Positions 36,318 to 45,029 of a stretch of DNA of 45,029 nucleotides are shown piece by piece. Both the position numbers and the translations under genes were made by a program. Position 1 is the first letter of the stretch, and the number at the start of each line of letters is the position of its first letter. This stretch comes from a virus. The notes under the pieces were generated by a model. That model saw only the letters and a list, made by a program, of their open reading frames with translations, did not search any database and had not been told where the DNA came from. Where the stretch lies: positions 1 to 45,029 of the IMG/VR virus record IMGVR_UViG_3300023106_000015; one strand, 5' to 3'.

Positions 36318-37013
36318 TTAGAAGCCCAGATTTTCAGCAAGATTCGTATTCTTCTCTTGAGTCAGAAGCGAGTCTGCTTTCTTCATCAGGAAGTCAACAC
36401 ATTCACCGAAGTTCTCTGCTTGCTTAGAACCATTCAGATAGATGGTAAGCTGATCCTTGAACTTAGGCAGGAGAGTGTCCTTATCTTCATGATTCTTCAG
36501 AGGATTAAGCTTCTGTGCCAGAACTGCAGCTTGCTTCTCAACTTGCTTAGCAGTCTTACCAGTGAGTGCAGGCATAGATGCAATGTAATCCTTGAAGAAA
36601 TCTTCCCAGACTTCCTTAGCAATACCACGACCACGACGTTCAGATTCTGGCTGATTAGCAATAGCTTCCCAGGTGAAATCTGCATAAGGGAAGTTGTCAG
36701 AGGTAATAGAAGTATCTTCCGAGAGACGAGACTTAACTGCATCTTCGATAGTATTCTGAACAGCTTGTTGCAGAAGTTCCAGTTGCTTACCACCAGCTTC
36801 GAGAATAGCGATGATACCTTCAACAGATGGAACTGGGAGCTTAGTTTCAACAGTTGGACGCTTTGTTTCTACGCCAGTTTCTTCATCTTTGATTTTACGG
36901 AAACCAAATTTAACTTCCTTGATATCGATCTTAGGATCGCTATTTGCAGTAATAGTGCGAGTAGCTTCTTGCGTTTGACCTTCGACGTTTTCCAGAACTG
37001 CTTCGTTTGACAT
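36318..37013 (-). CDS. Hypothetical early protein, probably abundant
   Basis: This 231-residue protein is the first gene behind the strong promoter at 37082-37110 and has a TAGGAAATATT ribosome site. Residues 1-30 are disordered. A strand region (DIKEVKFGFRKIKDEE, VETKLPVPS) and long helices (GIIAILEAGGKQLELLQQAV, TAKQVEKQAAVLAQKLN) follow, ending in LGF. Strong promoter, strong ribosome site and biased codons suggest high expression. I do not recognise the family; a DNA-binding or host-takeover role is possible but unproven. Confidence 0.65.
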   Translation of the reverse strand: MSNEAVLENVEGQTQEATRTITANSDPKIDIKEVKFGFRKIKDEETGVETKRPTVETKLPVPSVEGIIAILEAGGKQLELLQQAVQNTIEDAVKSRLSEDTSITSDNFPYADFTWEAIANQPESERRGRGIAKEVWEDFFKDYIASMPALTGKTAKQVEKQAAVLAQKLNPLKNHEDKDTLLPKFKDQLTIYLNGSKQAENFGECVDFLMKKADSLLTQEKNTNLAENLGF

Positions 37014-40186: not shown

Positions 40187-40371
40187 TTCTTTTCTCCCAT
40201 ACGATATAGAGTCCCATTAACTTCTTTATACAGATTTAGACGTGAGTCATACTGAATATTTGTATAAGGTAATCTGTGACTCCAGATATTAGCCATGGTA
40301 GCTTTTTGAACTTTGGATCTAATATCTAAGCACTTAAGATAGAAATTCCAGTCTGTAATAGTGAGAGACAT
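40183..40371 (-). CDS. Hypothetical small protein
   Basis: This 62-residue protein is coupled by TAATG to the 340-residue gene with GGAGAGAAG upstream. Its last five residues, MGEKK, are encoded by the ribosome site of the next gene. It is mixed helix and strand (NFYLKCLDIRSKVQKATMAN). Function unknown. Confidence 0.55.
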   Translation of the reverse strand: MSLTITDWNFYLKCLDIRSKVQKATMANIWSHRLPYTNIQYDSRLNLYKEVNGTLYRMGEKK

Positions 40372-41393
40372 TATAACTTCTCTCCATTTTCTTTATACCT
40401 TCTTGCCATATCCCAATTAGCTTTAGCTTTTAGATATGAGAATTTATTAGGATAATTCTTAGCTAGAGGTTCCAGTTCTGGTGCTGCATTAATAGCAGCG
40501 ATTTTATTCGCATCTTCACTGGAACTCTCCGAGTCCAGAATTGTGAATGATGTAGCTTGTTTACCACCTAGATCTATGTCTGAGAATCCAAGGTAATCTG
40601 CATGTCGTTTCTGACCGTTGCGAAGCAACTTCATCAGAGAATGAGATTGGATATTACCATGGATAATATTATCTTCACAATGATGAATTAGTTCAGATAT
40701 GTCTCCAGATGGAAAACGCCAGATAGCATCATCATTTGCACATGCACGAATTATTTGTTTCCAATATTCATTAATAGGAATAGGACGGCGTGTGATTGGA
40801 TGAGAAGTTAGGAATTCAGGGAAATTACCTGCTACTTCTGCCCATGATGCTAAGACGATAGATAGATCTTCGACTGATGTATCTGCAGTTTTAATAAGAC
40901 GAGATAGAGATGTTTCTCGTGATTCTAGCCGAGACTTATATTCTTCTCTCTCTGATGCAGATTTAAGACCATCATACCATTCATTGTAATTAGCTATCCA
41001 TGCTTGAATCCAATGATATGAGTTTTCGAGATTACATGTATCTGATGATATTGCAAAATGTGGGAGGACAAAAGATGGATGCTGAATTACATCTACTTTG
41101 CCGATGATATGGATAAGAGCTTCCATATTATTAGCTACGATAGATGCTGTTTTAGCTGTGTATTGTGCAGGAACTCGCCAAATAATTAGCTCTGTAGAAT
41201 TTAAGAGAGCTAAATATAGGAGATATGATTCAGTGGGAGATAGTTTTCCGATATGCCATTGTCCAGCAAGAGAGATAAGTTTCTTTTTGGATATGGAGAA
41301 TATAGGATGTGATACTTCTCTAGATGAGAGAGATAGAGGCATATGCTCACAAGCGAATATGACGCTTGATTTAGCACAAACGATTGATGCCAT
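40371..41393 (-). CDS. Conserved-looking early protein, function unknown
   Basis: This 340-residue protein is the first gene downstream of the promoter at 41497-41525, with a TAGGACAATC ribosome site. It is helical with repeated motifs such as HPIFSISKKKLISLAG, LSPTESYLLYLALLNSTELI, IVANNMEALIHIIGKV and HPSFVLPHFAIS. I associate these with an uncharacterised podovirus early protein family. There is no P-loop or nuclease motif. It may have a replication or host-takeover role, without direct evidence. Confidence 0.65.
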   Translation of the reverse strand: MASIVCAKSSVIFACEHMPLSLSSREVSHPIFSISKKKLISLAGQWHIGKLSPTESYLLYLALLNSTELIIWRVPAQYTAKTASIVANNMEALIHIIGKVDVIQHPSFVLPHFAISSDTCNLENSYHWIQAWIANYNEWYDGLKSASEREEYKSRLESRETSLSRLIKTADTSVEDLSIVLASWAEVAGNFPEFLTSHPITRRPIPINEYWKQIIRACANDDAIWRFPSGDISELIHHCEDNIIHGNIQSHSLMKLLRNGQKRHADYLGFSDIDLGGKQATSFTILDSESSSEDANKIAAINAAPELEPLAKNYPNKFSYLKAKANWDMARRYKENGEKL

Positions 41394-41454: not shown

Positions 41455-41497
41455 TATCTCTATATGTAGCCTATGAATTAAGCCACATATAGAGATA
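41455..41497. repeat. 13-bp perfect inverted repeat at an early promoter start site
   Basis: TATCTCTATATGT (41455-41467) and ACATATAGAGATA (41485-41497) are exact complements around a 17-base spacer. The outer arm abuts the -10 box, so the predicted transcription start lies inside the repeat. A protein bound here would occlude the promoter. Alternatively it forms a hairpin in read-through mRNA. Confidence 0.75.
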
Positions 41498-42230: not shown

Positions 42231-42434
42231 TTAGATTTCTCCGTGAATTGCGGCCATGATAAGAACAAAATAGATCTGAGATTCTAGATCTAGCATAGAT
42301 GGAGATTGGTCTAGATTCATATATTCATCTAGCATAATGCTGAATATATGCTGTGAACAGAAATGGATCGTATTAGTTTTAGCATCTAATATCTCTGCTA
42401 GTGCTAGGAATGTTTGTGGTACTTGAGAATACAT
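42231..42434 (-). CDS. Hypothetical small protein, first gene after promoter
   Basis: I start this 67-residue protein at 42434, behind GGAAAATTC; the longer frame to 42530 would cross the promoter. It is helical and acidic (QTFLALAEILDAKTNTIHFC, LDEYMNLDQSPSMLDLE). Function unknown. It leads the transcript from the 42502-42530 promoter. Confidence 0.6.
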   Translation of the reverse strand: MYSQVPQTFLALAEILDAKTNTIHFCSQHIFSIMLDEYMNLDQSPSMLDLESQIYFVLIMAAIHGEI

Positions 42435-42461
42435 TTTTAAGAATTTTCCATTTGTGTTAGG

Positions 42462-42814
42462 AATTTGGCACGATATGACACAGTGCCAAGATGCCAGAGG
42501 CAGGGTACCTCCTTGTCTCCTGCGTGTCAAGCCCGGAGGTGATAAGAGTATTGTGAGGTATTGAGAGGATAGATAGTGCTATTTGATATCGTATTGCATA
42601 GTATATTAGGGGGTTCAAAAAATGGAATTTAATATTTAAATACCCCTCCTATATTAGCTTATATCTATATCTATACCCCATATAATATACATGTGTGCGA
42701 GAGAGATAGGAATATAGATATAGGTGCGAGAATGAGGGGCGAGAGAGACATGTACACCCCCCATCTGGCATTCTGGCATTCTGGTTGTTTTTGCCATATC
42801 GTGCCAAATTGCCA
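42462..42814. promoter_or_regulatory. Paired operator-like clusters
   Basis: AATTTGGCACGATATG (42462-42477) has its exact reverse complement at 42795-42810. Around each copy are TGGCA/TGCCA pentamers: 42466, 42484 and 42492 in one cluster; 42766, 42774, 42792, 42802 and 42810 in the other. TCTGGCAT is repeated in tandem at 42765-42780. The clusters face each other across about 300 bases, an arrangement suited to DNA looping by one regulator. Confidence 0.7.
42502..42530 (-). promoter_or_regulatory. Sigma70-like early promoter
   Basis: TTGACA (42525-42530 on the minus strand) and TACCCT (42502-42507) with a 17-base spacer match the 41497-41525 promoter box for box. The TGCCA elements at 42484-42496 and the 16-base element at 42462-42477 lie just downstream, where a bound protein could block transcription. 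It drives the genes from 42434 downward. Confidence 0.75.
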
Positions 42815-42828
42815 GAATGAATGGAATA
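42531..42828. other. Structured noncoding region, possible replication origin
   Basis: No supportable gene lies here. It contains an AT-rich core (42616-42641) between GGGGT (42610-42614) and ACCCC (42642-42646). An 11-bp inverted repeat TATATCTATAT/ATATAGATATA lies at 42660-42670 and 42712-42722, and GAGAGAGA tracts sit near 42700 and 42741. A 105-residue frame through part of it has no ribosome site. Such structure is compatible with an origin or complex promoter region. Confidence 0.5.
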
Positions 42829-43074
42829 TTAAGAACAATTAAAACAAATGCGATTCTTAATAAGCCATTGGATTTTATCCATAGCAGAATCAGACCTAGA
42901 ACCAATATCAAACCATGCAGATTCATGTTCAGAATCTGTAGAGAAATGATAGAGCTTATGATTATGCACAATGATGTAATAGTCTAAACCATCATCATCG
43001 ATACATTCAAAGTCTTTAGTAACTGCCACATCAGATGGAATATCTGATACATTGAAATGACATTGCATACCCAT
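42829..43074 (-). CDS. Hypothetical acidic protein
   Basis: This 81-residue protein starts behind TAGGAGAAAC. It is acidic with many Asp, His and Tyr residues (DFECIDDDGLDYYIIVHNHK, YHFSTDSEHESAWFDIG) and ends CFNCS. Small acidic early proteins often bind host enzymes or mimic DNA, but I have no specific evidence. It borders the structured noncoding region. Confidence 0.6.
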   Translation of the reverse strand: MGMQCHFNVSDIPSDVAVTKDFECIDDDGLDYYIIVHNHKLYHFSTDSEHESAWFDIGSRSDSAMDKIQWLIKNRICFNCS

Positions 43075-43102: not shown

Positions 43103-43157
43103 TAGAATCTATTCCATATCCCACAATATTACATATGGGATACAGAATAAGATTCTA
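43103..43157. repeat. Long imperfect inverted repeat between early genes
   Basis: The arms 43103-43123 and 43136-43157 pair through TATCCCA/TGGGATA, a two-base mismatch, five pairs, one bulge and seven more pairs (TAGAATC/GATTCTA), with a 12-base loop. The outer edge touches the stop of the 54-residue gene. No T run follows on the minus strand, so this looks like a processing or stability hairpin. Confidence 0.65.
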
Positions 43158-43319
43158 TTTAGACTTAGGTTCGTCCTCTACGTACATTTTACGTGCGATA
43201 CGAATGATTTCATGCATATCGTCAGCATCTATATTATTATCTTCAGCAAACCTTTCTACTGTCAGATAATCATTTAGATATGTGAGATACATTGTTTTAA
43301 GTGTTTCACGCATATTCAT
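43155..43319 (-). CDS. Hypothetical 54-residue protein
   Basis: A short frame with an excellent AGGAG ribosome site six bases before the ATG fills the gap between two early genes. The product is helical (MRETLKTMYLTYLNDYLTVE, FAEDNNIDADDMHEIIRIAR) and resembles small uncharacterised phage proteins with a YLTVxxFAEDN motif, possibly a degenerate helix-turn-helix. Function unknown. Confidence 0.7.
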   Translation of the reverse strand: MNMRETLKTMYLTYLNDYLTVERFAEDNNIDADDMHEIIRIARKMYVEDEPKSK

Positions 43320-43333
43320 GTTAATCTCCTAGC

Positions 43334-44017
43334 CTAGAATCCAAGTGCATCAGAAGAGAGTTCCAATTCTTTAGCTTCTAGAATCTTTTTAGCTTTTCCG
43401 AGATAAATACTCATCCTGGAATCAATTGCATCCTCTGGCAAGAATTCACCAAATTTAAGCATAGCTTTACACTTAGGAATCTCAGGAGAATATTTACCCG
43501 ATGCGAAACCAGAGAACATCCCAGACAATACATTGATTTTATTCTCTACAACTTGTAGCTGTTCAGGAGACAAATCCTCCAATTCTACGCCCCACTTACA
43601 TGCGACAATAATGAATTCTGCAGCTTGAACAGAATATGTCTCTTTAAACCACTCACTCAAATACTCAGATGTGACACGCGATCCTTTTGCAGATGATTCT
43701 AGAAATGCAATGCAAGATGCGATAGAAATATCATCATCAGAAATCTCAGTACATCCGGATTCTTTTCTCTTCTCTGAGATAATTGCATCCCGTGTATCTT
43801 CAATCATTGCGAGGATATGTGGCGTAAGCTGGACGATATTCTCAGAGATAACAGATGATTCTAAGAATGGAATAGATACGCAAAGAGATTCAGGCAAATT
43901 AGGGCTATATCCGCCATCCTTAGAAGCTTTTGCAATGACACGAGACAAGCGTTGTCCAGAGAGAGGTTTAGACGATTTTGTGAGTGGTGCGAATTGGTGA
44001 CGATTAGAGTGAGACAT
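43334..44017 (-). CDS. Hypothetical early protein
   Basis: This 227-residue protein starts behind TAGGAATATATTATC. It has a basic, serine-rich N-terminus (residues 1-40), then helices, with IASCIAFLESSAKGSRVTSE, FIIVACKWGVELEDLSPEQL and VLSGMFSGFASG as distinctive segments, ending in LGF. I recognise no fold or active site. It is one of the largest genes near the start of the early region and may act on the host. Confidence 0.6.
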   Translation of the reverse strand: MSHSNRHQFAPLTKSSKPLSGQRLSRVIAKASKDGGYSPNLPESLCVSIPFLESSVISENIVQLTPHILAMIEDTRDAIISEKRKESGCTEISDDDISIASCIAFLESSAKGSRVTSEYLSEWFKETYSVQAAEFIIVACKWGVELEDLSPEQLQVVENKINVLSGMFSGFASGKYSPEIPKCKAMLKFGEFLPEDAIDSRMSIYLGKAKKILEAKELELSSDALGF

Positions 44018-44855: not shown

Positions 44856-45029
44856 TCATATGGATTGTCATATCATAATGTGATATATGTCCATAACCTA
44901 TATGCATACACAGTATCTATAGCCTATATGCAGTATGCATGTATACAATATATCCTATGCTATATACAATCTACCAATATATAGGAGGGTATAGGGGCCT
45001 TTTTATGATCTTATCCTGGCTCTATCCTA
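44856..45029. repeat. Terminal direct repeat, right copy
   Basis: This is the second copy of the first 174 bases of the window, with A at 44983 in place of G at 128. It continues the noncoding region between divergent early and late genes, so joining the ends gives one intergenic region of about 500 bases. Confidence 0.9.

Follow-up and report, generated by a model that had tools for sequence, protein, structure and literature searches.

A 394-bp noncoding gap in the early module of a podovirus genome carries two mirror-image arrays of a short repeat word, which flank a central A/T-rich tract and one of which abuts a conserved promoter. The anatomy, position, word pattern, promoter and A/T tract of this element were established directly. 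As to function, we give about even probability to an iteron-type replication origin, present once in the genome and joined to a promoter through which the leftward early/replication operon is autoregulated.

Given its direct terminal repeats of 174 bp (1-174 and 44856-45029, one mismatch), the window, by which we mean the whole stretch of 45,029 bases analysed here, is a complete phage genome, encoding a terminase, portal, PolA-type polymerase, primase, Sak4-like protein, nuclease and Dda-like helicase. By portal and helicase, its distant kin are the Pseudomonas phages PaP2/119X (Fredfastierviridae), Polaromonas phage Tiera and EBPR podovirus 3, all at 30-40% protein identity, and closer relatives, whose helicases reach 62% identity, are numerous in IMG/VR. 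Megablast of the element region against cultured phages gave no match. After single-protein scans with the early proteins had recovered nothing, the relatives were obtained with a helicase alignment, yielding a comparison set of 24 whole relatives and further contigs. A scan of bacterial genomes matched only contigs in metagenome-assembled genomes, so that no reliable host could be assigned.

Anatomy of the element

Two minus-strand ORFs, 42231-42434 and 42829-43074, border the element, which fills the space between them (Table 1). The exact 16-base inverted pair reported in the initial annotation, with copies 317 bases apart, was located as described; no third copy of AATTTGGCACGATATG was found at up to 3 mismatches, and under relaxed matching the arms reach 48 nt with 75% complementarity. 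Of 200 shuffled sequences, 57 also contained an exact inverted pair of 16 bases within some 400 bp. The pair alone is unremarkable; the weight is carried by the word cluster and, above all, by its conservation. TGGCA/TGCCA occurs 90 times in the whole window, no more than expected, and the eight pentamers previously noticed here were recovered within the 349 bases from 42466 to 42814, against 0.64 expected (Poisson P 4e-7); eight in any 353-bp stretch were reached in 0/300 dinucleotide shuffles, for which the mean maximum was 4.2. The 8-base steps claimed for several of these words were likewise observed (42484/42492, 42766/42774 and 42802/42810), as was the tandem arrangement of TCTGGCAT at 42764-42779, and the right arm contains a third, degenerate unit, TGGTT, at 42782.

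Table 1 Features of the element and of its neighbourhood in the window
Feature	Position	Strand	Basis or detail
Noncoding element, twin inverted iteron arrays and central A/T-rich tract	42435..42828	.	Sequence, ORFs, counterparts in relatives
16-base inverted pair, left copy, AATTTGGCACGATATG	42462-42477	+	
16-base inverted pair, right copy	42795-42810	-	Exact reverse complement of AATTTGGCACGATATG
Left iteron arm	42466..42496	.	TGGCA 42466-42470; TGCCA 42484-42488, 42492-42496 (8-bp step)
Left-arm variant word TGACA	42476-42480		
Right iteron arm	42764..42814	.	TGGCA 42766-42770, 42774-42778; TGCCA 42792-42796, 42802-42806, 42810-42814
Leftward promoter	42502..42530	-	-35 TTGACA 42530-42525, 17-bp spacer, -10 TACCCT 42507-42502
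Central motif GGGGGTTCAAAAAA, candidate unwinding region	42609..42646	.	A/T-rich tract, then CCCC
340-aa conserved protein, candidate initiator or loader	40371..41393	-	Downstream of element, leftward operon
227-aa conserved protein, candidate binder	43334..44017	-	First conserved gene right of element

The strong promoter that had been placed at one arm corresponds to TTGACA-17-TACCCT on the minus strand and is conserved in relatives. A minus-strand TTGAC(A) -35 element was found at the inner edge of the left arm in 18/22 relatives listed as well as in the window, counting TTGAC within 48 bp of the corresponding array, and in the relatives it is followed by a -10-like hexamer at 16-18 bp. Where phages belong to the TGCCA class, the -10 opens with the CA of an iteron (CATTGT, CATAGT, CAAAAT); in other relatives, as in the window, TACCCT or TAGGGT stands directly before the array. 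The TTGAC element persists even where the iteron word is a different one, which identifies it as a promoter rather than a stray iteron.

Within the core between the arms, the A/T-richest 40 bp lies at 0.59 +/- 0.09 of core length, compared with a spread of 0.28 in shuffles (0/1000), and in relatives it adjoins a run of G or C. Iteron origins characteristically have an A/T-rich region whose place with respect to the iterons is constant, as is the case here; the tract is a candidate for unwinding. Furthermore, a GGGGTATCAAAA-like sequence occurs at the core in about ten genomes, from the clade of the window to PaP2, and is rare elsewhere, with 16 matches in the 2.5-kb zone (some sites counted twice) against 9 in all the rest. 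On the minus strand, the consensus of the centre (42609-42646 and counterparts) runs from an A/T-rich stretch through a TTTTGA-like sequence and 3-7 C (or G) to TAAWATAnAC. As a general sigma-70 promoter, the central tract was unsupported (mean z 0.16). An inner inverted repeat with arms of 14-28 bp was seen in the cores of G006, G008, G013, G018, G019 and G028, where it beats all 40 shuffles; it is absent in other relatives and is therefore not claimed as a universal part.

The cumulative GC skew of the window reaches its maximum within the element, at 42747. Across genomes, the local skew on the left minus that on the right was positive in 20/22, with values near zero or reversed in G013, G014, G015 and G032. 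Since the flanking genes in the window lie on the same strand, gene direction does not explain the change. In sign, the plus strand is G-rich on the left, the opposite of a classical bidirectional origin. We count the skew switch as evidence that replication is organised around the element, not as proof of an origin. In addition, the minus strand of the element folds better than shuffles (z -6.0), and Rfam gave no match for the element. Long A/T-rich, terminator-like hairpins were noted on the minus strand on either side of the region, at 43109-43150 and 41455-41497.

Conservation of place and change of word

In nearly all relatives, twin inverted arrays are found 2.0-4.3 kb upstream of the gene for the large terminase, and almost nowhere else in each genome. 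The initial annotation had named the pentamers of close relatives as the point on which its proposal would stand or fall, and the closest relatives (G006, G028, G011, G017, L014, L015, L016, L032, L042 and L076) keep TGCCA arrays at the same place, while distant relatives keep the architecture with other words. Scanning for 8-bp-stepped inverted word pairs gave candidates in 44/66 helicase-bearing loci, against about 2 expected from shuffles; matches with at least five copies look genuine, and those with four copies include chance. The strict five-copy signal was present at terL-2.0 to -3.7 kb in 11/25 whole genomes and elsewhere only twice. Moreover, in a word-free test, in which all inverted repeats with arms 120-600 bp apart were ranked within each genome, the top-scoring repeat fell in this gap in 16/25 genomes and the second in several others. 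With a chance of about 7% per genome, the nominal binomial P is 4e-13, uncorrected for relatedness and overstating independence, the relatives being phylogenetically linked. These periodicity and inverted-repeat tests were used instead of a search for over-represented 5-mers, which was swamped by low-complexity genes.

Five contigs fetched by their terminase and standing outside the set from which the rule was drawn (L006 and, from bacterial-genome bins, L164, L165, L166 and L167) all obeyed it: the highest-ranking inverted repeat of each lay at terL-2 to -4 kb, that of L165 including TGCCATTATGCCAGAATGCCAGAAGGGTGTCAACCC. When read by eye, AGACT arrays were also apparent in G012 and G016. In PaP2 and 20Aug470, CAAGGT repeats on one side and their inverse on the other flank GGGGGTTAAAAAATTC. 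The latter phage, a cultured Pseudomonas phage of the PaP2 group (OQ319931.1, L168), shows the same plan at 741-1126 with GGGGGTTAAAAAATTC at 924, and in the PaP2 record the element is divided by the record ends. Tiera has an inverted repeat at the corresponding place, but no clear iterons were found in it. In G015, G025 and G026, the gene family of the 227-aa protein lies on the opposite strand, so that the element is situated between divergent genes, unlike in the window.

The repeat word is common to both arms within a phage and differs between phages: TGCCA in the clade of the window and in G009, G013, G014, G020 and G021; TGACA in G015, G018 and G005; AGACT/AGACC in G007, G008, G010, G012, G016, G030 and L006; GTGCTA at 10-bp steps in G025 and G026; ATCATA at 6-bp steps in L057; TGGCT at 8/9 bp in L062; and CAAGGT in the cultured phages PaP2 and 20Aug470. 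A word that is shared within and changed between phages is the mark of a single, putative co-evolving binding protein. Across relatives the array period is mostly exactly 8 bp, and in the TGCCA phages exact 8-bp neighbour spacing was counted for 35/53 neighbours inside the arrays against 2/70 elsewhere. Because the strict 8-bp array is almost unique in each genome and this spacing is nearly confined to the arrays, the putative binder would act at one place. On the plus strand of the window, the usual order is one outward copy, 2-4 inward copies, the core, 2-4 inward copies and 1-3 outward copies, and the arms of L071 are unequal, with 13 and 2 copies. Tandem repeats of one word at one genomic place, a feature expected of an iteron origin, are present.

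Origin, operator and other readings

In the mechanism that we propose, a putative phage-encoded protein would bind the words that recur every 8 bp in both arms. At the left arm, it would cover the start region of the TTGACA promoter and so limit transcription of the operon that carries the helicase, nuclease, Sak4-like protein, polymerase and primase genes. The two bound arms, facing each other across about 300 bp, could be brought together and help the central A/T tract to melt, whereupon the helicase and primase may be loaded. We thus infer a binder, repression, melting and replication at the element. Counting against the origin, the overlap with the promoter is equally what a plain operator would show. 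Also counted against it are the sign of the skew inflection, the failure to recognise an initiator among the early proteins scanned, the lack of a clear binder from co-variation, and the inverted repeat of Tiera with no clear iterons.

Such a purely transcriptional two-site operator is the main rival and a serious possibility, although we place its probability clearly below even. A repressor occupying both arms would loop the DNA and close down the leftward early promoter, and the element would have no role in replication. The repressor would perhaps be an immunity or pseudolysogeny switch, and different repeat words would define different immunity groups. As in looping operators, the presumed operator overlaps a promoter, the left-arm iterons lying on or beside the -10 of the conserved TTGACA promoter, and a second, distant site is conserved. 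For Shea, a PaP2-like phage, an unintegrated episomal state with resistance to superinfection is reported (PMC13348215), which needs repressor-like control, and the diversity of words between relatives would suit heteroimmunity. The proposal in the initial annotation of a looping regulator or an origin with initiator sites is partly supported, by the conservation of the element and by the promoter on the arm. Helical phasing of the arms, which strict looping would predict, is a weak, borderline trend (distance modulo 10.5 bp, R 0.37, p 0.05, n 21, several periods tried). Against the operator, the arm distance ranges from 202 to 444 bp. An operator leaves unexplained both the skew inflection and the fixed position of the central A/T tract with its flanking G/C run, a tract that is unsupported as a general sigma-70 promoter; moreover, no conserved repressor-like or regulator gene adjoins the element.

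It is improbable that the arrays form a centromere-like partition site that also regulates the promoter and keeps a pseudolysogenic episome, in the manner of the RHH-bound tandem repeats of pSM19035 parS. Tandem 7-8-bp direct and inverted repeats beside promoters do resemble omega heptad arrays (compare PMC9499535), and a distant relative, Shea, has been reported as an episome (PMC13348215), but none of the early proteins scanned was recognised as an NTPase of the ParA, ParM or TubZ type, and the central A/T tract would be superfluous. Slightly less probable still is pairing of the complementary arms into a cruciform or a long-range RNA stem, with the differences between phages as compensatory changes. 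The folding of the minus strand and the persistence of complementarity as the arms diverge between phages would agree with a stem. A plain stem, however, would need no tandem 8-bp units, mixed orientation or unequal arms, whereas here the arms repeat short words every 8 bp with spacers that differ, both orientations occur in one arm, the copy numbers can be as uneven as in L071, and Rfam recognises nothing. A chance cluster without function, for which the ease of finding the 16-base pair in shuffles might speak, has a negligible probability and is refuted by conservation, since the arrays recur at one genomic place in nearly all relatives.

Known systems and candidate binding proteins

Comparisons with lambda ori, herpes oriS, MetJ and omega describe how the element may work, not a membership. 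With iteron-type theta origins, such as lambda ori (O protein) and those of iteron plasmids, it shares tandem short repeats in a single genomic copy beside an A/T-rich tract, a word that is common within a genome and changed between relatives, and overlap with promoter control. It differs from these origins in that its A/T tract lies between two inverted arrays, which point towards one another over a distance of about 300 bp, in having no recognised initiator, and in its units of 5-6 bp at 8-bp steps, the iterons of those origins being about 18-22 bp. Inverted initiator sites flanking a central A/T-rich spacer beside promoters are also seen in herpes simplex oriS/oriL; that virus is unrelated, and our element has no UL9-type protein and many short words rather than few boxes. 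RHH tandem operators likewise set 7-8-bp tandem units, direct and inverted, on promoters (MetJ met boxes are 8 bp and the omega heptads of pSM19035 are 7 bp), but no RHH gene was recognised here, twin arrays surround an A/T tract, and some lineages step at 6, 8/9 or 10 bp. As in lambda OL/OR and the gal looping operators, two clusters flank a promoter-bearing region and one of them lies on the promoter; here, in contrast, the variable arm distance lacks clear helical phasing and the clusters are tandem 8-bp arrays. A T7-type promoter origin would share the early-module location in a podovirus with terminal repeats, but the A/T tract here is upstream of the promoter instead of downstream. All early proteins of >300 aa were scanned (primase, PolA, Sak4-like protein, nuclease, helicase and the 340-aa protein) and no phage single-subunit RNA polymerase was found among them, which makes such an origin unexpected.

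Searches of open-access papers turned up no description of such an origin or operator in the group. Iteron origins as such are known, and so are multi-site operators; mirror-image 8-bp arrays that enclose an A/T tract and bear a promoter on one arm are a new form of them. That the element represents an undescribed class of phage origin and control switch, built of mirror-image short-iteron arrays whose specificity diversifies fast between related phages, is a tentative idea that we think rather doubtful. If it holds, each phage type would have its own initiator/operator code, giving rise to incompatibility or immunity groups, and the element could explain why PaP2-like phages are reported to persist as episomes (pseudolysogeny). 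The comparison points to a single short control element, present once per genome, in a large, mostly uncultured podovirus group and in the cultured Pseudomonas phages PaP2 and 20Aug470. As an origin, it would make replication initiation in the group directly testable; as an operator, it would be the probable switch of the group's episomal carrier state. The different iteron words that relatives carry at this homologous locus form a natural series, and with it a ready data set for identifying the binding protein and the code by which it recognises its sites.

No HTH or RHH family was detected in the early proteins scanned against Pfam and PHROGs, and no initiator fold or family was recognised in the conserved proteins near the element. 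Comparing TGCCA with AGACT phages for co-variation between repeat word and residues, we obtained no convincing binder from the separating columns. The 340-aa protein, a candidate initiator or loader, is conserved in 27/28 IMG/VR relatives searched; its AlphaFold model (pLDDT 89.5) had no homologue in the PDB and one clear viral structural match only. The 227-aa protein, a candidate binder, was found in 20/25 genomes, and its model (pLDDT 85.5) likewise had no homologue in the PDB. Adjacent to the element, on its right side, a 54-aa protein (43155-43319) has weak matches to PHROG 26669 and 4907, which are families of unknown function. By eye, the 227-aa protein and a conserved 231-aa protein (36318-37013) look like paralogues.
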